NCBI GenBank assembly: GCA_017561085.1
Contig: JAFZDQ010000112.1
Coordinates: 1-44,871, forward strand
Source: Lachnospiraceae bacterium
Lineage (GTDB): Bacteria; Bacillota; Clostridia; Lachnospirales; Lachnospiraceae
Reading direction: 5' to 3'
DNA: 44,871 nt
The notes beneath the pieces were generated by a model, which was not told the DNA's origin, did not search any database, and worked only from the letters and a program-made list of their open reading frames with translations. Shown here one piece after another: positions 27,950 to 37,400 of this stretch. A program made the position numbers and the translations under genes. The stretch's first letter is position 1; the number at the start of each line of letters is the position of its first letter.

Positions 27950-28216
27950 TTATTTTCTAAGACCAAGTCTTTCAATCAAAGAACGGTATCTTTCGATATC
28001 TTTGCTCTTAAGATAGTCAAGTAAACCACGTCTCTGACCTACTAATTTGAACATACCTCTTCTGGAGTGGTTGTCCTTGGGATGAACCTTTAAGTGCTCT
28101 GTGAGCTCCTGGATTCTTGCTGTAAGAACTGCAATCTGTACTTCAGGTGAACCTGTATCGTTAGCACATGTAGCATATTCTTTCATAATTGCTGCTTTCT
28201 TTTCTTTAGAAATCAT
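27950..28216 (-). CDS. rpsO: 30S ribosomal protein S15
   Basis: 88 residues, the usual length. Signature [20 protein letters not shown], then [20 protein letters not shown] and [21 protein letters not shown]15 binds 16S rRNA in the central domain. AAGGAGG lies just upstream of the ATG. Confidence 0.98.
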
Positions 28217-28219
28217 GTT

Positions 28220-28310
28220 TGTTTCCTCCTTTTTCTTAATAATCGCCGTGAGCTAAGATTCGGTCGGAGTCTTCCAAGAATCCGGGCTCAGGCTATAAAT
28301 ACATACCTTA
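28220..28310 (-). promoter_or_regulatory. Probable S15 autoregulatory leader
   Basis: The roughly 100-nt leader folds around TGAGC/GCTCA (extended by GCC/GGC) enclosing GATTC/GAATC and a GG-rich loop, ending shortly before the rpsO ribosome-binding site. rpsO leaders that bind S15 are known in several bacterial groups with differing shapes. That this one binds S15 is inference. Confidence 0.45.
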
Positions 28311-28313
28311 ACG

Positions 28314-28342
28314 ATAATACCACAGTTTCGGGCGCGTGTAAA
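28314..28342 (-). promoter_or_regulatory. Promoter of rpsO
   Basis: TTTACA (28337-28342) and TATTAT (28314-28319) with a 17-bp spacer on the minus strand, about 98 nt upstream of the rpsO start. Confidence 0.8.
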
Positions 28343-28360
28343 GTATGATTTTTCATCAAC

Positions 28361-28651
28361 TTAATCCGGTATTCTGCATTCAGTAAATTCAACTGTTCCA
28401 TCTATAATGGAAACATTACATCGCGCTGAATATTGCCATTTGATTCCCGAGGTTAAGATTAACTGCGTAACTTTTGATATATCATATTCATTCACGGGTT
28501 TATCATTTATTCCCACAAAACAATTAACAAAACCATCTTCTTCACTATAGCCCGAAGTTGCATTATCAGCATGCTCTTTACAGAATTCATATCCTAATTT
28601 ATTGATACACGCAGATATTCCGATACTCTTAGCTTCATTTACCGTTAGCAT
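28361..28651 (-). CDS. Hypothetical protein, partner of JAMM-motif gene
   Basis: 96 residues, mixed alpha/beta by appearance, with no recognised motif (MLTVNEAKSIGISACINKLG at the start, VSIIDGTVEFTECRIPD at the end). Its ATG overlaps the stop of the upstream gene by one base (TAATG), so translation is coupled. The AT-rich composition differs from the flanking rpsO and wall-protein genes. It could be a partner or immunity-like protein of the JAMM gene; that is a guess from position. Confidence 0.7.
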   Translation of the reverse strand: MLTVNEAKSIGISACINKLGYEFCKEHADNATSGYSEEDGFVNCFVGINDKPVNEYDISKVTQLILTSGIKWQYSARCNVSIIDGTVEFTECRIPD

Positions 28652-29136
28652 TATCTTATACCTCCTTCCACAAAATCATCAAAAATATTTGCAGTAAATT
28701 CCATTTCATAACCGGTTATATAAGAAATAATCGTACTTCTTTTCTGGTCTATATATTTCAAAAAATCTCTATCATCTTCAGAGGGTTCTATTGATGAATA
28801 ATCAGGATGTGTGTGTGCTATTAAGCGAAGTTTCTTAGACTTTAAAAGAATCAGTAGCTCATCAGTGAATTCACAATGTCTCTCAATCCCATGGAAAACA
28901 ATGTCCTTCGTTTTCCCTCTTAATAGAGCAAATTCATGCTTTGTTGCTGCTGAAAGATAAGCGATATCCTTAATTGTTATGGATTCATATTCGAATGCAC
29001 CCCAATCATTAGGATTTGGAACTCTTGCTAATATATTTTTCCTTCGTTCATTCAATCCAGCATCTCCGTTTCGTATAGCTTCCAGTGATTTCTGTGTCGA
29101 TGCTGTAGAAGCAAGCAAGTTCTGCTTTACTTTCAT
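28651..29136 (-). CDS. JAMM/MPN-like putative metallopeptidase
   Basis: About 161 residues. It shows a possible JAMM zinc site: a glutamate in KHEFALLRGK, then 40 residues later the HxH of LRLIAHTHPDYSS, and PSEDDRDFL supplying the serine and aspartate. Spacing of HxH to S is one residue longer than in RadC or Rpn11 but is similar to JAB domains of phages and polymorphic toxins. The N-terminal 60 residues are helical and charged. Start at the ATG 29136; an in-frame TTG at 29142 has better spacing to AAGGGG and may be the real start. AT-rich, likely acquired. Function unknown. Confidence 0.65.
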   Translation of the reverse strand: MKVKQNLLASTASTQKSLEAIRNGDAGLNERRKNILARVPNPNDWGAFEYESITIKDIAYLSAATKHEFALLRGKTKDIVFHGIERHCEFTDELLILLKSKKLRLIAHTHPDYSSIEPSEDDRDFLKYIDQKRSTIISYITGYEMEFTANIFDDFVEGGIR

Positions 29137-29266
29137 TAACAAATATTTCCCCTTTTTATCATCAAATATTAACAATCAAGTTTTTATTTACTTATTGTTA
29201 ATTATATTATATCAAAAAAAAATGGAAAGTACATATTTTTAGAAAGATTTTATATTTGAGGTTTCA

Positions 29267-29956
29267 TTAACGGAATGTGACCGTTTCTGCACTTTGTTTG
29301 AATGCGTCCATGTATCCGGCGCCTTTTTCCTGGATGTAGCTGAAGATATGCTCTTCTTTTCCTGCCTCATCATAAATAAGGAGCTGGAGCTGTTCATAGT
29401 TCGTACCAAGAAGCTTGTAGGCTACTTCGATCTGTACGCATTCCTTTCCGTCTGTTTCATACTCCTTTAAGTCCTTCACTCTGACATCCACGTCTTCACC
29501 GTAGTTGTCCTGAAATTCCTTAATAAGACGTTCTCTGAAAATCGCTTCGTTCACAGCTTCCTTCCTGCCGTCATAGGCTGCTATCAGATAGCTGATGCAG
29601 GCGATTTCTTCAGGGTATTCTTCACAAACGAAAAGTCCTTCTTCCCCTTCATATTCCACAAAACCTTTGGGCAGACGCAGGTTTATACTTCCGTCTTCCC
29701 CTAAATTCGCTTCTTCTGTTTCTATTTGCGTTTCCGCGTCTTGATTGCTACCTGCTACGGTTTCTTTCTGACTGTCGGTTTCTTCCTGACTGCTTTCTGC
29801 GCTATCATCCTTGCTGTCGTCTTCTGTTACGGGAACGCCGGCAATGGTTACTTCCATTGCCGGTGTTTCCTCTGTTTCTGTCTTTCCTTTTGATGCACAG
29901 CCGGTCAGCATTGTCAGGGTCAGCGCAAGCACCAACCATAATGCTTTTTTATTCAT
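29267..29956 (-). CDS. Lipoprotein coupled to the Cna_B wall protein
   Basis: 229 residues with a lipoprotein signal (MNKKALWLVLALTLTMLTGC). A low-complexity acidic stretch rich in E, S, D and T (about residues 25-85) is followed by a compact domain (SINLRLPKGFVEYEGEEG to MDAFKQSAETVTFR). Its ATG lies inside the end of the upstream gene (8-nt overlap ATGAATAA), so both are made from one mRNA. I do not recognise the folded domain. Confidence 0.85.
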   Translation of the reverse strand: MNKKALWLVLALTLTMLTGCASKGKTETEETPAMEVTIAGVPVTEDDSKDDSAESSQEETDSQKETVAGSNQDAETQIETEEANLGEDGSINLRLPKGFVEYEGEEGLFVCEEYPEEIACISYLIAAYDGRKEAVNEAIFRERLIKEFQDNYGEDVDVRVKDLKEYETDGKECVQIEVAYKLLGTNYEQLQLLIYDEAGKEEHIFSYIQEKGAGYMDAFKQSAETVTFR

Positions 29957-32900
29957 CCTTCAAAATTCCTCTTCTTTTGCCCTTATAAATTTGGGTGGCT
30001 GCAAACGTGGCTGAAATACCTGCCATTAACAGCATACCAATCCATAAGAAAATCTGCATGTCATCGCCTGTTGCGGGACGTCTTCTCTTACCAAGAACTG
30101 CACAGTCTGTGGCTCTTCTTGCTCCAAGCACTGCCGCTTCAATGCCTACTTCCTCTACTCTTTCGCCCTGCTCGGGTTCCACCTCCGTTACCGGCTTGGG
30201 TGTAGCGCTAGGTGCCGGTGTCTTGCCCGGCGTAGGTGCCGGCGTTTCCCCGGGATTCGGTGTAGGGGTTGTCTCAGGCTCCGGTGTCACTTCCGCTGTG
30301 GGCGTAGGTGTTTCGGTAGGCTTGGGTGTCGCCGTAGGTGACGGTGTTGCCGTAGGTGCGGGAGTTTCCTCCGGTACCGGGGTAGGAGTCGGTGTAGGTT
30401 CTACCTTGTGGGTATTGGTAATGGTAAAGGTATCCTCACTGTAGGTAGTGGTGTAGCCTTTCACCTTACTGATTTCCTTCACGGTATATGTGATTTCCAC
30501 GCCGTCCTTATACTTGGGCAGGTCTGTCCAGGTATAGGTCCACTTGTTTGCTTTGTTTAATACTACAGGCTCGCCTATCTCTTCGCCGTCTGCAAGGAGC
30601 TGAACTTTGATGCTGTCGGGACGGAGGCCGTCCTTGTCGTTTTCGTCCTTCCACTTCTTTAAAACCGTTACTTCGGTGGTTTCAGGCTCATGGGTATTGG
30701 TTACGTTATAGCCGTCTACTTCACTGTCGTAGTCTGCAACTTCATCTTCCGTGATGGTGTAGACGATTTCCACGCCACCGTCTCTGTACTTGGGAAGCTC
30801 TGTAAAGCTCCACTTCCAGTCATCTGCTTCCGTTACGGTTACAGAGTCGATTTCTGTTCCGTCTGCAAACAGTCTGATAGTAATGCTTTCAGGTCTCTTT
30901 CCGTCCTGATTGTCTGCATCGTCCCAGGTCTTTTCACCGCTTACTTCAGTTGTTTCGGGTGTATAGGTATTGGTTACGTCATAGCCGTTTATCTCGGTTT
31001 CGTAGCCTGTAACTTCATCTTCTGTGATGGTATAGGTTACAAGCTGGCCTACTGCACCAACCTTGTATTTAGGAAGTTCTGTAAAGCTCCACTTCCAGTC
31101 ATCTGCTTCTGTTACGGTTACGGAATCAATCTTTTCGCCGTCCGCAAGTAAATTGATGGTGATGCTGGAAGGACGTTTACCGTCCTGATTGTCTGCATCT
31201 TCCCAGGTCTTTTCACCTTCAATATCAACCACTTCCGGTTCATGGGTGTTTATTACGTCGTAGCCGTCTACTTCGGTTTCATAGTCTGTAACTGCTTCTT
31301 CCGTAATGGTATAAACGATTTCCTGACCTACTGCACCAGCCTTATACTTGGGCAGGTCTGTGAAACTCCATGTCCAGTTGCCGTCTGCATCGGGAGTCAC
31401 TGTTACGGAATCAATCTTTTCGCCGTCTGCAAGTAAGTTGATGGTGATACTGGAAGGACGTTTGCCATCCTGATTGTCGGCATCTTCCCAGGTCTTTTCA
31501 CCTTCAATATCAACCACTTCCGGTGTATAGGTATTGGTTACCGTGAAGACTTTTTCTTCTTCCTCATAGGTTGCGGTATAGCCTTCCGGTAAGTTTATTT
31601 CTTCAATGGTGTAGGTAATCTCTGCCCCACCGATTGCGGTCTTGGGCAGGTGTTCCCAGGTATAAGCCCAGCCATTTGCTTCACTTAAGGTAACAGGGTC
31701 GCCATATGCTACTCCGTCACCAAGAATCTGAATTTCAATGCTTTCGGGACGCTTTCCGTCCTGATTGTCTGCATCTTCCCATACCTTCTTCACGCTACGC
31801 TGTGTTTCGGGAATGCTGATTTTTACGCGGGTTCCGATTACCGTTGCGTACTCGCCCTCTGAGGAGGTACTAGTCTGACGGTAACAGGAGTATGCCGGTC
31901 TGTTGATGGCGTAAATCTTGTCCGGGTTTTCCATCTGGGGCAGGGTGTCCGGTGCGGTCATGCTGATTTCAAAGTATACACAGCCGCTGTTGGGTAACAC
32001 GAAGTCGCTGCCGTCTGTTTTCTTACGCAGGTCTACCGCGATGGCCTTGATGGTACTCTTATCTTCCGGCTGTGTGGTGGACCAGACAGAAGTATTCTCA
32101 AGCCAGGTATCCTTCACGCTGCCGGTTTCCGTGTTATAGTCAATATCTGCCGTGGAGTAATAAACCACGGGAGCAATGCCAAGGGCTACGGCGCGAGAGG
32201 TATCGATAGACTGGAATGTTCCCTTCCATGTTACTTCTCCGGTGGCGCCTTCTTTGTTGGCCGCTTCTTCTAAAATGTCGTAAACAATTAAATCCTTTAA
32301 GGTACCGCTGGCGGAGTTAGTTACGCCCACACGGTATTTGTAGGTGTCATTTAAGTTGGTGGTATCGATGGTGGTATAAATACCGCCGTTCCCTTTGACA
32401 CGTTTGTCGATACCAACTTCCAGGGAGGTAGCCATATCCAGAGATACTGCCACGTAAGCGTACAGGGTGCTGTTGGGTGTGATTACACCATCCCCATCCA
32501 TGTCGCAGAACGCAGGATTTCCGTCACGGCCTACTACTTCTAAAAATTTCACTGTACTGTCAACCGGATTTCCTTTATTATTATATACCTCCGGATTTCC
32601 GCTGTCTGATTTAGAGTCTCCCTTGATGGTCTTGCCGCTCTGGAATGCAACCAGGTTGTATTCATTACCGGTGGTGTAAACCAGATCTTTCCAGGTGATA
32701 TAGGTGTCGAAGGTAAGTTCAAAGCCACTCACTCCGGTATAAACAGATGAATTGTTTCCGATATGCAGTGCAGAAAAATAACGATACACCTGCTCACGCA
32801 TAAAATTTGTTACACCCTCATCACACTTCACATAGAACTTCACCATCTGTCTGCCGGTTCCGTCCCAGTTATCAAATGCCTCTACCTTCGTAACCTGTAC

Positions 32901-35900
32901 TCCGGTCCCCCCATTTGATACCATATATCTTTTTACAGTAGGCGTGGACTCGGTATTATACTTGTAACCAACCGGAAGCAGGTCATAAAATACCCCTTCC
33001 GTCTGCTGGAACGCATTAAATATCTCCGGATTATTTGTCGCAAAGCTTTCAGACATGTTAGTGGATTCAGCTTCCGTTATCTTAAACTGTACTTCTGCCC
33101 TTTGCTTATCGGTATTGTTTGTCTTACTTACGATTTCTTTCTTAATAGCAGATTTATAGGTAATGGGAGAAAGTACGCCGGAGTCCCAGTCTCTTAACAT
33201 ATAACCGTCACTGGTGGCTTCTCCATAGTTATTCTCTGCTTTATCTCTGGTTGCTAGATATTCACATACTGATGTAGACGGCTTGGAACCACCGGGTGTA
33301 GTTACCTGTTCTGCACTTTTGTCATTCCATACAAAGTTTCCGTTTTCATCCGTAAGGAAATGCTTAAAGGCTGCCACATCATAAATATATATACTACCGG
33401 TGTAATCCGGATTTGCCTCTGCCCATGCCTTGAAGGTAGGGGAAGTGGGCTTAATTTCTGTATACAAGTCTATGTTACATTTGAATTTTCCTCTTCCCAC
33501 TGCAGGCGTTTTTACGCGAATTCTGGTAAAGCCGCGCCCCTTTATATTCGTGTCTAAACCACTGCTATTGATACCTTTATTAAACAAATAACCACCACTA
33601 GCTTTTTGAGGCTCTAATGTAATTGTCTGGATTTCTTCCCATGCACCTTTTCGATACCCTTCAATTACCAAATCTCCGCCTTCAAAATCCGAATAATAAG
33701 AGTTTCCGTTGGATAAATCTACAACCGAGAGACTGCAACTTATACGATTTATCTGGGTAATTTCATAATCTTCCTCCGTCATGGGAATATAAGCACCATT
33801 TTCTCCCAGATTCCAAAAATGAAAATCATCATAGATTTCAAATTTTTGTCTGGCATCCTCAGAAAGCAGGTTTCCGTCATAGGATTGCTCCAATTCCCAC
33901 TCAAATTCTCCCGGAGATTTTCCGTTTTTTACAATTTCTATACCACCGGCATAGGTATTTCCACCATCCTTTTCCCATGTTTCCAGTTCACCGATATGGT
34001 ATTCGTAATTCACCCATTCGAATTCATCCATGGTAATCTGCGCACCATCTATATCATTGTGGTCGCCGTCTTCTACCAAATGGCTGTCTTCATCCGTCGT
34101 CGTAATATCCAGATAAATGATAGGCTGGAAGCTTTCCTGTGTGGCAGGATAACGGACATAGATTGTACTATTTACCTCTGAGGTCATTGAACTTCCTTGG
34201 GAATACATTGTCCCCGGCCTTGTATAAGACCATGCCGTTGTATCTCCTTCCGGATGAAGCTGAACAGGGTGATTCTTAACTACTCCCCCTCTGTCAGGAC
34301 TCATACTGGATTTTACAAATAGTACCTCTGCTTCATCGCAAAGTGCATCTTCAAAATGGAATAGCGACTCTGTGGGCTGATTGATTTTTGTATACTGCTC
34401 ATTTATATTAAATGACATATACCTGTAATTCTCAAAATCTGCATCCGTCCTAAGTTCAGAAGGTAACTTATCCGCACTGTAAATATAGGTTGGCTTGGGC
34501 GGCGTACTGGAAAATGACAGTTTACCCAAGGTAAACCCGGTATCCAGCTGATAGGTAATGGCATCTGTGGTATATACCTCAGGGGTATCCTGCAGGGTGG
34601 TTGTCGCACTTCCCTTGGCTACCAGTTCGCCAATACTCATATCGATGGTTTTCACAGGGTCAACCGTATATCTTACTTCAATGGTGGTGTTGGTACCGGC
34701 CGGCACCTCGCACCAGTTGGTAATTACCAATTCGTCATCCGCTTCATTTTCCGGGGTTCCCATATCATCTACCCAATAATGATATCTCACGTCCTCATCT
34801 GCAGGAATATCAGGCATCTTCGCCAGGGAAATCTGGCTGGGCACGCAAGCCGTTCCGTCACGGTACGCCCAAAGGGCATAAGGAAGCCTTACCTCCATCT
34901 TGCCGGTATCATAAGTGCCGGATGAGGTAATGATATTCAGCACGTAGGTGGTGTCAACGCCACTTTCTTCTACTGTGTCGTAGGTCTGGTGATACTTCTT
35001 ACTTTCGTCTGCAGTCTTCCAGTAAAGGTCGATGGAATACTGGAGTTTATCAGAGGTTGCACTCCAGGTAAGGGTAACTGCGGGGTCGCTCTCTGCTGCC
35101 GCTTCGTCTGCTGCTGTGGCTGCTGTTTCCGCGTCCGCTCCCATACCTGCATAAACCTTCACTGTGGCAGGGTTTGAGTTGGTGCTGTCCGCACCTTCCT
35201 CTGATGTAAAATCTAAAGTGAATTCTGTAGCCGCATCTTCAAGGCTGTTATCAAGCGTGAAATAGCAACCATCCGCGGTTTTCGTAAGGGTGATTTCATT
35301 TCCGCTTGTATCTGTTACAGAGAAGGTTTCACCTTCTGCCACTTCTGTCAAAAGGCCTGCTCTGTCTGTATCTAACTTCAGGTAAAAATAATTGTCTGCT
35401 CCCATAGGTGCACTTGCACTGACCTTCATGGATAAGGTCTCACCAAAGTAAGCACTGATTTTGTCCCCTTCTGTGGTAACTTCGATGGTGGCAGGCTCTG
35501 CTTGCTGGGGTTCTAAGTCTATCTCATCCCCTAACGCATCTTTCAAAAGTAACAGTTCCTCTTCGGTCATACAGTCGCCTTCATGGCCCTTCTCCAGGGC
35601 ACAGTTTTCAGAGAGGTCACAAGCTTCTTCAAGCTCACAATCTCCCTCATGCCCTGTAGGCAGGATGCAACCTTCTGTCAGGGTACATTCTTCCTCCGGC
35701 TCTGCTGTGGGTTCTGTGCCCGGTTCTAAAGTAGGCTCTATAGTAGGTTCCACGGTTGCCTCTGCTGTAGGCTCCTCGGTAACTTCTGCTGAAGGCGCGG
35801 GCGCTTCCGTAGCTTCTGTACCGGTTTCTGTGCCAGGCTCTGTAGCAGGTGCTGTCGTTTCAGTTGCTTCCGTTGCAGGTGCTTCTGTTGCCGGAGCCTG

Positions 35901-36128
35901 GGTAGGCTGTTCAACCACGGGCGCCTGTGTAGGCTCCGGGGCTTGCGTCTGAACGGGCTCTGCTACCGGTTCCTCGGTAGGTTCCGCTTCCTCCTCTATC
36001 ATGACTTCTCTTTCCACTTCCACGGGGACCTGCTCACTTGCACGAACCCATTCAAAGGGGAAAACTGACAGTATCATAAGCACTGTCATAAAGTACAAAA
36101 ATGATTTTTTCCTGAAGAATTTATTCAT
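29949..36128 (-). CDS. Giant cell-wall-anchored protein with five Cna_B repeats
   Basis: 2059 residues. A signal peptide (KSFLYFMTVLMILSVFPF, cut near residue 31) is followed by a T/P/E-rich stretch and two copies of a cysteine motif ending GHEGDC. Then comes a long extracellular region (about residues 225-1440) with probable adhesin beta-domains. Five Cna_B repeats span about residues 1440-1910; each has the lysine of EKTW or KKVW, a glutamate as in YTITE, and an asparagine as in VTNT, the triad that forms internal isopeptide bonds. A proline-rich wall-spanning tail ends in the sortase signal RPATGDD, a hydrophobic helix and KGKRR. The ATG at 36128 has GGAG 8 nt upstream; a longer frame from a TTG would begin inside the promoter. 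A surface adhesin is likely; ligand unknown. Confidence 0.93.
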   Translation of the reverse strand: MNKFFRKKSFLYFMTVLMILSVFPFEWVRASEQVPVEVEREVMIEEEAEPTEEPVAEPVQTQAPEPTQAPVVEQPTQAPATEAPATEATETTAPATEPGTETGTEATEAPAPSAEVTEEPTAEATVEPTIEPTLEPGTEPTAEPEEECTLTEGCILPTGHEGDCELEEACDLSENCALEKGHEGDCMTEEELLLLKDALGDEIDLEPQQAEPATIEVTTEGDKISAYFGETLSMKVSASAPMGADNYFYLKLDTDRAGLLTEVAEGETFSVTDTSGNEITLTKTADGCYFTLDNSLEDAATEFTLDFTSEEGADSTNSNPATVKVYAGMGADAETAATAADEAAAESDPAVTLTWSATSDKLQYSIDLYWKTADESKKYHQTYDTVEESGVDTTYVLNIITSSGTYDTGKMEVRLPYALWAYRDGTACVPSQISLAKMPDIPADEDVRYHYWVDDMGTPENEADDELVITNWCEVPAGTNTTIEVRYTVDPVKTIDMSIGELVAKGSATTTLQDTPEVYTTDAITYQLDTGFTLGKLSFSSTPPKPTYIYSADKLPSELRTDADFENYRYMSFNINEQYTKINQPTESLFHFEDALCDEAEVLFVKSSMSPDRGGVVKNHPVQLHPEGDTTAWSYTRPGTMYSQGSSMTSEVNSTIYVRYPATQESFQPIIYLDITTTDEDSHLVEDGDHNDIDGAQITMDEFEWVNYEYHIGELETWEKDGGNTYAGGIEIVKNGKSPGEFEWELEQSYDGNLLSEDARQKFEIYDDFHFWNLGENGAYIPMTEEDYEITQINRISCSLSVVDLSNGNSYYSDFEGGDLVIEGYRKGAWEEIQTITLEPQKASGGYLFNKGINSSGLDTNIKGRGFTRIRVKTPAVGRGKFKCNIDLYTEIKPTSPTFKAWAEANPDYTGSIYIYDVAAFKHFLTDENGNFVWNDKSAEQVTTPGGSKPSTSVCEYLATRDKAENNYGEATSDGYMLRDWDSGVLSPITYKSAIKKEIVSKTNNTDKQRAEVQFKITEAESTNMSESFATNNPEIFNAFQQTEGVFYDLLPVGYKYNTESTPTVKRYMVSNGGTGVQVTKVEAFDNWDGTGRQMVKFYVKCDEGVTNFMREQVYRYFSALHIGNNSSVYTGVSGFELTFDTYITWKDLVYTTGNEYNLVAFQSGKTIKGDSKSDSGNPEVYNNKGNPVDSTVKFLEVVGRDGNPAFCDMDGDGVITPNSTLYAYVAVSLDMATSLEVGIDKRVKGNGGIYTTIDTTNLNDTYKYRVGVTNSASGTLKDLIVYDILEEAANKEGATGEVTWKGTFQSIDTSRAVALGIAPVVYYSTADIDYNTETGSVKDTWLENTSVWSTTQPEDKSTIKAIAVDLRKKTDGSDFVLPNSGCVYFEISMTAPDTLPQMENPDKIYAINRPAYSCYRQTSTSSEGEYATVIGTRVKISIPETQRSVKKVWEDADNQDGKRPESIEIQILGDGVAYGDPVTLSEANGWAYTWEHLPKTAIGGAEITYTIEEINLPEGYTATYEEEEKVFTVTNTYTPEVVDIEGEKTWEDADNQDGKRPSSITINLLADGEKIDSVTVTPDADGNWTWSFTDLPKYKAGAVGQEIVYTITEEAVTDYETEVDGYDVINTHEPEVVDIEGEKTWEDADNQDGKRPSSITINLLADGEKIDSVTVTEADDWKWSFTELPKYKVGAVGQLVTYTITEDEVTGYETEINGYDVTNTYTPETTEVSGEKTWDDADNQDGKRPESITIRLFADGTEIDSVTVTEADDWKWSFTELPKYRDGGVEIVYTITEDEVADYDSEVDGYNVTNTHEPETTEVTVLKKWKDENDKDGLRPDSIKVQLLADGEEIGEPVVLNKANKWTYTWTDLPKYKDGVEITYTVKEISKVKGYTTTYSEDTFTITNTHKVEPTPTPTPVPEETPAPTATPSPTATPKPTETPTPTAEVTPEPETTPTPNPGETPAPTPGKTPAPSATPKPVTEVEPEQGERVEEVGIEAAVLGARRATDCAVLGKRRRPATGDDMQIFLWIGMLLMAGISATFAATQIYKGKRRGILKDE
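30400..31810. repeat. Tandem array of five Cna_B repeat units (about 270-285 bp)
   Basis: Units two and three match almost base for base in their first 110 bp (for example copies beginning at 31131 and 31416, 285 bp apart), and neighbouring units share motifs such as DNQDGKRP. Near-identical tandem units can recombine, so repeat number may vary between strains. Confidence 0.85.
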
Positions 36129-36169
36129 GTATCCGTCTCCTCTCAAAATAAGTAAAACGTTCCACCTTA

Positions 36170-36200
36170 ATTTTACCCCCCCCCACCTATATTTTGTCAA
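36170..36200 (-). promoter_or_regulatory. Candidate phase-variable promoter of the Cna_B wall protein
   Basis: On the minus strand a perfect -35 TTGACA (36195-36200) and a -10 TAAAAT (36170-36175) are 19 bp apart. Nine of the spacer bases are a run of G touching the -10. The start codon is 41 nt further down. Loss of two G would give the ideal 17-bp spacing. Confidence 0.72.
36176..36184. repeat. Homopolymer run of nine C/G in promoter spacer
   Basis: Nine C on the plus strand in an otherwise very AT-rich intergenic region. Such tracts change length by slipped-strand mispairing during replication. Confidence 0.95.
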
Positions 36201-36269
36201 TATTCGTTAATTATTTATTTATATTTTGTATATATTTACTAAACTTTTAAGGAATTTTAGTTTTTTTTA

Positions 36270-36300
36270 CGAAAACAAAAGCGGGCATTTTCGTGCCCGC
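36270..36300 (-). terminator. Rho-independent terminator after NlpC/P60 gene
   Basis: GCGGGCA and TGCCCGC form a 7-bp stem (36300-36294 and 36287-36281) with a 6-nt loop, followed by UUUUGUUUU. Confidence 0.88.
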
Positions 36301-36329
36301 TTAACTTCGCTAAAATATTCAACTTCTCT

Positions 36330-37400
36330 CTAATCCTGCAGTACTCTCATCATCTTATGAGGTGTTCTGTAATTGTATTTAGAAATCTTAATACCGGACT
36401 TAGGGCTGCTGGCATGTACTACCTGGCCTCCGCCGATATAAATTGCCACATGGTTGATGGTTCCGCCCTTGGCATAGAAAATCAAATCTCCGGCCTTTAA
36501 ATCACCTGCTGAAATCTGTGTACCTACGCCTGCCTGTGTTCTGGAAGTTCTGGGAAGAGATACACCATACTTCTTAAATACACTCTGTACGAAACCGGAA
36601 CAGTCCGCACCCTTAGTAAGGCTGGTGCCGCCCCACACGTAAGGGTTACCGATAAACTGCTTTGCATACTCACAAAGCTCTACTCTTACATCAGATACGC
36701 CTTCCCCATATAAAACTTCCGTCATGGTAATGGCAGTATTTAAATCAGACTTAACTTCCACATAATCTGCAGAAACATAAACTTCTTCACTATCCAGGTA
36801 AACCTTCACCCAGCCGTTATTCATAATTTCGGCAATATCCAACATTTCACCATGGGCTACCTGAGTCACCACTTCTGCTGAGGTGTTGGGCTCTTCTCTG
36901 ACATTTAAGCCGTCCGTATTTGCTACAGCAATGGGACTTGCCAGTTCTTCACCCTTTTGGATGGCATCAAAGCCTACCAAAAGATACTGTTCTTTCACAT
37001 AGCCGTCTACCTTACCGGACTTGATATGCGCCCAGCCATCCTTGCTCTCTAATACTTCACAAGCCGCATTCTTAGGCAGCTTCCCTACCATTTTACCGGA
37101 TTCATCGGGAGTCTGTCTGATATTTAAGTTATTATCCTCCACGTTACAAATACCGAGATTGGTATAACCCCATCTGGCTCCCTGTGCCTTCTTAGCGATT
37201 TCCTTATATTCGTCTTCCGTCAGTACCGTACTGAAAAGTTCGCCGATACCGGCTGTCAGAAGGTCTTCTGTTGACTGTGCAATATTGTTATTTTCTTTTA
37301 CTATCTGATTATTTATTTCGGATGCGTACGCTGTAGCCGGTGTTCCCAAAACAAGACCGGCAACCAGTGCACACACACCACATTTCACTAATGTTTTCAA
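36330..37400 (-). CDS. Secreted SH3-domain NlpC/P60 peptidoglycan hydrolase
   Basis: 356 residues. A signal peptide (VCALVAGLVLGTPATAYA) leads to two bacterial SH3 domains (about residues 80-145 with NLNIRQTPDESGKMVGKLP, and about 155-220 with GLNVREEPNTSAEVVTQVA). The C-terminal NlpC/P60 domain (about 240-356) carries the catalytic cysteine in GADCSGFVQSVFKKYG, with SLPRTSRTQ and the histidine in INHVAIYIGGG. Such enzymes cut the D-gamma-Glu to diamino acid bond in stem peptides. The start codon is TTG (37400) with AGGAGG 6 nt upstream. Confidence 0.95.
   Translation of the reverse strand: MKTLVKCGVCALVAGLVLGTPATAYASEINNQIVKENNNIAQSTEDLLTAGIGELFSTVLTEDEYKEIAKKAQGARWGYTNLGICNVEDNNLNIRQTPDESGKMVGKLPKNAACEVLESKDGWAHIKSGKVDGYVKEQYLLVGFDAIQKGEELASPIAVANTDGLNVREEPNTSAEVVTQVAHGEMLDIAEIMNNGWVKVYLDSEEVYVSADYVEVKSDLNTAITMTEVLYGEGVSDVRVELCEYAKQFIGNPYVWGGTSLTKGADCSGFVQSVFKKYGVSLPRTSRTQAGVGTQISAGDLKAGDLIFYAKGGTINHVAIYIGGGQVVHASSPKSGIKISKYNYRTPHKMMRVLQD

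Follow-up and report, generated by a model that had tools for sequence, protein, structure and literature searches.

Promoters whose spacer ends in a long run of G directly against the −10 hexamer form a real class in the Lachnospiraceae, and one of them precedes the gene of a large wall adhesin in the DNA studied here, a stretch of 44,871 nt of contig JAFZDQ010000112.1 (Lachnospiraceae bacterium, assembly GCA_017561085.1), which is called the window below. The adhesin promoter is probably of the sigma-70 type with a slippage-prone poly-G spacer, i.e. a phase-variable promoter of the kind described for porA of Neisseria meningitidis and tp0126 of Treponema pallidum. The evidence consists of the recurrence of the layout, the strand and position of the tract, the promoter spacing that accompanies it, and tract lengths in homologous copies.

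Promoter and operon of the adhesin

The sequence-only reading of the window had described TTGACA and TAAAAT on the minus strand, separated by a 19-nt spacer that ends in nine G, and direct reading confirms this arrangement (Table 1). The homopolymeric G tract lies between −35 and −10, the layout by which the poly-G promoter-spacer class is recognized, and it is the sole run of at least seven G in the window. From the −10 hexamer to the adhesin ATG at 36128 there are 41 nt. A consensus promoter scan of 36100-36340 accepted spacers of 16-18 nt only, hence the 19-nt poly-G promoter is absent from its output; its single match, TTGAGA-17-TAAATT at 36146-36118, is weak, overlaps the start codon and is at the level found in shuffled sequence (shuffle mean 1.0). 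Judging from the sequence, we see no better candidate than the poly-G promoter in the gap between the nlpC terminator and the adhesin. Rfam elements at gathering score were not found in 35900-36500. To our knowledge, nine G are too few for a three-tier intramolecular quadruplex.

Table 1. Features of the adhesin promoter and its operon (window coordinates)
Feature	Position	Strand	Basis
−35 hexamer TTGACA	36195..36200	minus	consensus 6/6; read from sequence
Promoter spacer AAATATAGGTGGGGGGGGG, 19 nt	36176..36194	minus	read from sequence
G9 tract, flush with −10; putative slippage site	36176..36184	minus	read from sequence
−10 hexamer TAAAAT	36170..36175	minus	consensus 5/6; read from sequence
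Ribosome-binding site AGGAG	36137..36141	minus	read from sequence
Wall protein (adhesin), 2059 aa: signal peptide, five Cna_B stretches, C-terminal RPATGD sorting-type motif, hydrophobic stretch, basic tail	29949..36128	minus	Pfam PF05738 (E 1.8e-129) and translation; signal peptide and RPATGD motif judged by eye
Lipoprotein, 229 aa, lipobox LTGC by eye	29267..29956	minus	ORF; 8-nt overlap with adhesin stop (ATGAATAA)
Terminator-like hairpin of upstream nlpC, sets operon apart from nlpC	36279..36302	minus	hairpin
Two more small ORFs of the inserted module, 174 and 96 aa; transcript membership uncertain	28361..29175	minus	ORF list

The genes behind this promoter are of the surface or exported kind that goes with the class, namely a lipoprotein and a Cna_B protein that bears a signal peptide and a C-terminal motif of the sorting type, and the overlap of the lipoprotein ORF with the adhesin stop makes coupling of the two plausible. 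Together with the 174-aa and 96-aa ORFs they make up an insert of ~8 kb between nlpC and rpsO (window 27950-36400). In 11 of 29 genus loci nlpC is followed by rpsO and pnp, named by Pfam, within 1.5 kb, and in the other 18 rpsO falls outside the stretch compared. The gene order marks the adhesin operon as an accessory module placed between nlpC and rpsO. A true adhesin ortholog was found in none of the 36 congeners: the protein search gave Cna_B-repeat matches only, in 4 of the 37 genus genomes (own included), and upstream of three Cna_B-match proteins (L369-L371, gene starts approximate) there is no run of at least six G. The DNA of the promoter region matches 32/37 genus genomes (own included), nearly always through the nlpC end alone. 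The 174-aa ORF (window 28651-29175) has no Pfam match and holds a HTHPDYSSIEPSEDD stretch, which we take to resemble the JAMM/JAB metallopeptidase motif.

Recurrence of the promoter layout

The G-tract layout recurs in the family far above chance, and almost only with the G on the non-template strand. Of 397 family genomes, 36 (from 35 of 334 genera) contain the pattern TTGACN{6,18}G6TAWAAT; its 46 places are mostly at different genes, and the reversed control gave 0/397 genomes. When C6 was swapped for G6, one of the 397 genomes matched (three for the corresponding reversed control). An independence estimate that assumes 2.95 Mb per genome predicts about 3.5 places in the family for at least six G and 0.17 for at least eight, against the 46 observed, of which 34 have at least eight. 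Within the genus, TTGAC, at least seven G and TAWAAT stand in register in 4/37 genomes (reversed pattern 0); since two of the four are orthologous sugar-binding lipoproteins, three different genes are represented.

In the window, a long G-run by itself is not above chance, but its placement in a promoter is. Matches to G7 number 3 against a mean of 6.64 in dinucleotide shuffles, whereas TTGACN{6,18}GGGGGGTAWAAT matches once and occurred in none of 100 shuffles. The 2.96-Mb genome contains six distinct long G-runs (one G10, the G9 of the adhesin promoter and four G7), and TTGAC 8-16 nt ahead of G7 is found in it at one place, which is the adhesin promoter.

Tract position and promoter spacing

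At the 46 family places, the flush tracts run from G6 to G11 with a peak at G9 and sit in spacers of 14-20 nt, with 17-nt spacing in only 4 of them (2/25 when TATAAT alone is counted). For runs of at least six G elsewhere in the spacer of a promoter with a TATAAT −10, the count is 26 places, spread over 24/397 genomes (reversed control one genome); 25 of the 26 were parsed and comprise 20 G6 and five G7, none longer. A 17-nt spacing is held by 14 of these 25, compared with the 4/46 of the flush tracts (Fisher p 2.5e-5), and the two sets also differ in the share of tracts with at least eight G (Fisher p 1.9e-10), it being understood that the flush search accepted TAAAAT or TATAAT and the non-flush search TATAAT only. 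Several of the non-flush G6-G7 promoters precede genes that by eye look like housekeeping genes.

The same was seen with exact-TTGACA promoters in a wider set, composed of the matches listed from a broader search plus the family and genus loci, in which related loci are not independent: 17 nt was found in 8/137 promoters with a flush tract versus 24/48 tract-free ones, the latter being promoters without G5 in the same loci. Split by group, as assigned from record titles and with some places counted in two groups, the 17-nt fractions among the matches listed are 5/44, 2/18, 1/20 and 1/37 for Clostridia/Bacilli and 8/48 for the remaining organisms. A two-peaked spacing, at 16 and at 18-19 nt, was considered and set aside: the 15-16-nt peak stems largely from one uncultured-Clostridia set (21/37 there, among the matches listed) and partly reflects clades, but 17 nt is still low in every Clostridia/Bacilli group and less markedly so in the remaining organisms. 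In statistical terms the scarcity of 17 nt is a clear indication, itself testable, that most of the alleles captured lie away from the usual optimum.

Tract length in homologous copies

The sequence-only reading had also proposed that tract length be compared across relatives. This comparison gives different lengths for some homologous members of the class and equal lengths for others, the adhesin locus itself being one that lacks a true ortholog among the congeners. Between homologs the tract stays G while the remaining spacer diverges, and the tracts of the class are very probably length-variable, though not in every comparison; for all comparisons it should be kept in mind that consensus assemblies may miscount G-runs. 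Sugar-binding lipoproteins of three species that are 81-91% identical have G9/G9/G11, two large secreted proteins of 51% identity G11/G9, ABC ATPases G11, G9 and G9, and the 80% identical pair L270/L271 G10/G9. Paralogs or look-alikes within one genome differ as well (L105/L106 G9/G10; L243 G10/G11), including the L286 tandem paralogs, which have near-identical flanks and G10/G9, in spacers read by eye as 20/19 nt. Where similarity was judged by eye, different lengths were found in L208 (G10/G9), L190/L217 (G9/G11) and L219/L253 (G9/G10); L126/L127 (G7/G8), whose genes fall into no common cluster, have promoters that are similar by eye. Tracts are of equal length in the L273 pair (G9/G9), the L292 pair (G8/G8), L283/L303 (G8/G8), L228/L241 (G8/G8), L200/L257 (G9/G9), L266/L295 (G9/G9) and three G248 copies (G7).

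Viral contigs, with 1 and 11 pattern matches plus relatives, served as a proxy for variation at the same locus, and their comparison is mixed. The phage contigs L383 and L385 are identical and carry G12 in such a promoter; in L384, which is 99.65% identical to them along 4.9 kb, the tract measures 15 nt and is interrupted by two T, which may be a base-calling effect. G13 is present in all of L442, L443 and L451. Different lengths were also seen in L387/L388 (G13/G14), L465/L466 (G7/G8) and L481/L482 (G8/G7); the sets concerned (L386-L388, L465/L466, L481-L483) are no TTGAC-type promoter spacers.

Genes behind the tracts

Export was called with a crude custom signal-peptide rule. It classes as exported-looking 75 of the 113 genes that follow a flush tract, as opposed to 6/28 that follow a tract-free promoter (p 2.7e-5, among the matches listed). 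Within the family the flush tracts give 23/40 and the non-flush G6-G7 control 7/20, which is not a significant difference (p 0.17), and the pooled comparison of 75/113 with the 7/20 of that control, again among the matches listed, gives p 0.012. By eye, the downstream genes include large repeat proteins, glucan-binding-type repeats, lipoproteins, ABC ATPases and a Wzz-like protein.

Two phage contigs (L374:2872-3445 and L165:1324-2344) carry, after a gene that by eye resembles that of a tail-assembly chaperone, additional genes under a separate poly-G promoter, in the manner of morons. L228 and L241, near-identical poly-G promoters of a single uncultured-Clostridia MAG, have a repeat able to form a hairpin directly behind the −10 (by eye).

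Known systems with homopolymeric promoter tracts

In porA of N. meningitidis the poly-G tract lies between −35 and −10, and expression follows the order 11G>10G>9G (PMC3639595, PMC7864442). The adhesin promoter shares with it the homopolymeric G in the promoter spacer of a surface-protein gene, and porA expression is graded by length; unlike the adhesin, PorA is a Gram-negative outer-membrane porin, and its switching and expression have been measured, whereas the adhesin locus is known from sequence. In T. pallidum, tp0126 has a G-tract between −35 and −10 with an optimum of 17 nt in all, an optimum that the same source states for porA too; tprL has 7-11 G, mostly 9, varying within isolates, and control of the poly-G promoters of tprE/G/J also involves a CRP homolog (PMC7864442). 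All of these are poly-G promoters like that of the adhesin, but serve spirochaete outer-membrane proteins; for tp0126 and tprL, as for porA, effects have been measured (PMC7864442).

Closer in habitat is Bifidobacterium breve, a gut Gram-positive commensal in which G-tract slippage controls a sortase-dependent pilus (PMC9187656). These tracts are intragenic and act on the reading frame rather than on promoter spacing; the authors mention promoter-spacer G-tracts in passing (PMC9187656). In Streptococcus pyogenes the transcript level of R28/Spy1337 depends on the length of an intergenic T-tract (PMC7098570), and the likeness is that of a Gram-positive LPXTG surface protein, but the tract is a poly-T between divergent genes instead of a G-run flush with the −10. 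The opc gene of N. meningitidis likewise has a homopolymer in a surface-protein promoter, in this case poly-C overlapping the −35 (PMC7864442), and the C-run pattern is the one found in a single family genome.

A literature search for poly-G promoter-spacer switching in Lachnospiraceae or Clostridia, incomplete and covering few subscription journals or preprints, found nothing on point, which agrees with the earlier remark that such variation is little described in gut Clostridia. The mechanism is already known; within these limited searches, the family-wide recurrence and the under-representation of 17 nt appear to be new.

Possible mechanisms

Slipped-strand phase variation of the porA/tp0126 type is the best explanation of the class. 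Replication slippage would add or remove G, each step shifting the distance between −35 and −10 by one base, and in individual cells this shift would make transcription of the adhesin and its overlapping lipoprotein stronger or weaker. By analogy with tp0126 and porA, the 17-nt spacing obtained with G7 would be the strong state and G8 an intermediate one, and the sequenced 19-nt G9 allele would be weak or off. Its biological use may be heterogeneous surface display. The earlier reading of the promoter as a phase-variable candidate is partly supported, for the class by recurrence, G strand, flush position, genes that are often exported and lengths that differ in several homologs; for the adhesin locus we infer it from membership of that class. 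Against switching speak the presence of one such promoter only in the own genome, the homologous copies of equal tract length, an export excess that is not significant against the in-family control, the small share of promoter spacers in a promoter-blind sample of G9 tracts, possible miscounts of G-runs in consensus assemblies, and the G-over-C strand bias, which slippage alone leaves unexplained.

This strong bias implies a role of the Gs other than in slippage, perhaps by an extended −10-like contact, and poly-G may alter DNA geometry and move the spacing optimum. A second mechanism would make this the entire role of the tract, as a fixed functional element in which the non-template G-run by the −10 improves or tunes binding of RNA polymerase, either by the extended −10-like contact or by an A-like DNA form in which a spacer of 18-19 nt becomes shorter, and in which no switching takes place. 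The excess of G over C (36 versus 1 of 397 genomes) argues for it, since slippage would be strand-neutral, and the flush placing of the long tracts suggests a role for the Gs themselves. However, flush spacers ranging from 14 to 20 nt in one family and homologs of different tract length are unexpected for a fixed element, and G6-G7 runs elsewhere in spacers mostly hold 17 nt. We consider a fixed element without switching rather unlikely, while the idea of a function for the Gs and that of slippage can hold together.

A third mechanism treats the G-run as an operator, bound by a CsoR-like regulator or another G-tract binder of surface genes. It would fit the recurrence before exported-protein genes and the palindrome AGTTTAACGTTAAAC that by eye lies just 3′ of the −10 in two sugar-binding-lipoprotein poly-G promoters (L132, L133); this palindrome, presumably LacI-operator-like, suggests layered control in these two. 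At the adhesin, 36000-36500 has 0 pairs of inverted repeats with arms of at least 10, and no dyad around the tract was seen by eye. Moreover, tract length is not fixed and the class extends across many unrelated genera, so that we regard an operator as very unlikely.

Chance or an assembly artefact, i.e. a G-run that happens to lie beside an ordinary promoter, or a wrong homopolymer count, is highly improbable. It would agree with the G-runs alone not exceeding chance in the window, and with the G10 discussed below, which is no promoter spacer and is missing upstream of the same gene in 29 congeners examined, but not with the absence of the full pattern from all shuffles, with family counts above expectation and above both controls, or with flush tracts whose lengths have their maximum at G9 and do not simply fall off from G6. 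Inversion of the promoter by a recombinase, a known route of phase variation in gut bacteria, is scarcely credible here, as the flanking inverted repeats that it needs were absent from the 36000-36500 scan (arms of at least 10).

If slipped-strand variation operates throughout the class as in porA, many gut Lachnospiraceae and relatives would differ from cell to cell in their adhesins, binding proteins and exporters. Such variation, unseen in consensus genomes, would bear on colonisation, on recognition by the immune system and on sensitivity to phages. The stereotyped anatomy makes the class searchable in read data. A wider proposal is tentative and in our opinion somewhat doubtful: gut Clostridia and Bacilli might have in common a large class of poly-G spacers that recurs independently before surface and secreted genes, mostly off-optimal (15-16 or 18-20 nt, with 17 nt under-represented), weak by default and one to three slips from full expression, which would amount to community-wide bet-hedging of surfaces by DNA slippage and not by recombinases.

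Other long G-runs

The long G-runs of the family are mostly something other than promoter spacers. In a promoter-blind sample of 30 family G9 tracts, one per genome, two were clearly promoter spacers and a third was judged to be one by eye, and 8 of the 14 tracts checked lie inside ORFs of at least 200 aa. One genome, G065 (L167-L184), has 20 exact G9 tracts; they were rejected as members of the promoter-spacer class because 14/20 are overlapped by an ORF of at least 200 aa on either strand, and its intragenic tracts are candidates for phase variation of the frame type.

The G10 of the own genome (contig C64, L042:3576-3585) was considered as a second switch and rejected, there being no conserved promoter spacer in congeners. 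It directly precedes the palindrome GTACTTTGGTAC, and downstream lie an HTH-like gene and one that by eye resembles the gene of UDP-galactopyranose mutase. The HTH gene matches 32/37 genus genomes (own included). In 29/29 of the congeners examined, from 31 others matched, the 152-173 bases upstream of this gene contain no run of at least five G. By eye, a GTACTTT[AG]GT stretch is found upstream of the gene in 24 of these 29, and in the own genome it stands just after the G10.

Similar ATGGGGT-TAGCAAAAA-CTATAT-AATGTATT stretches occur at L048:3275-3281 and in L135, followed by G7 in the own genome and by G9 in the other, which belongs to another genus; they are possibly copies of a small repeat element whose tract varies.
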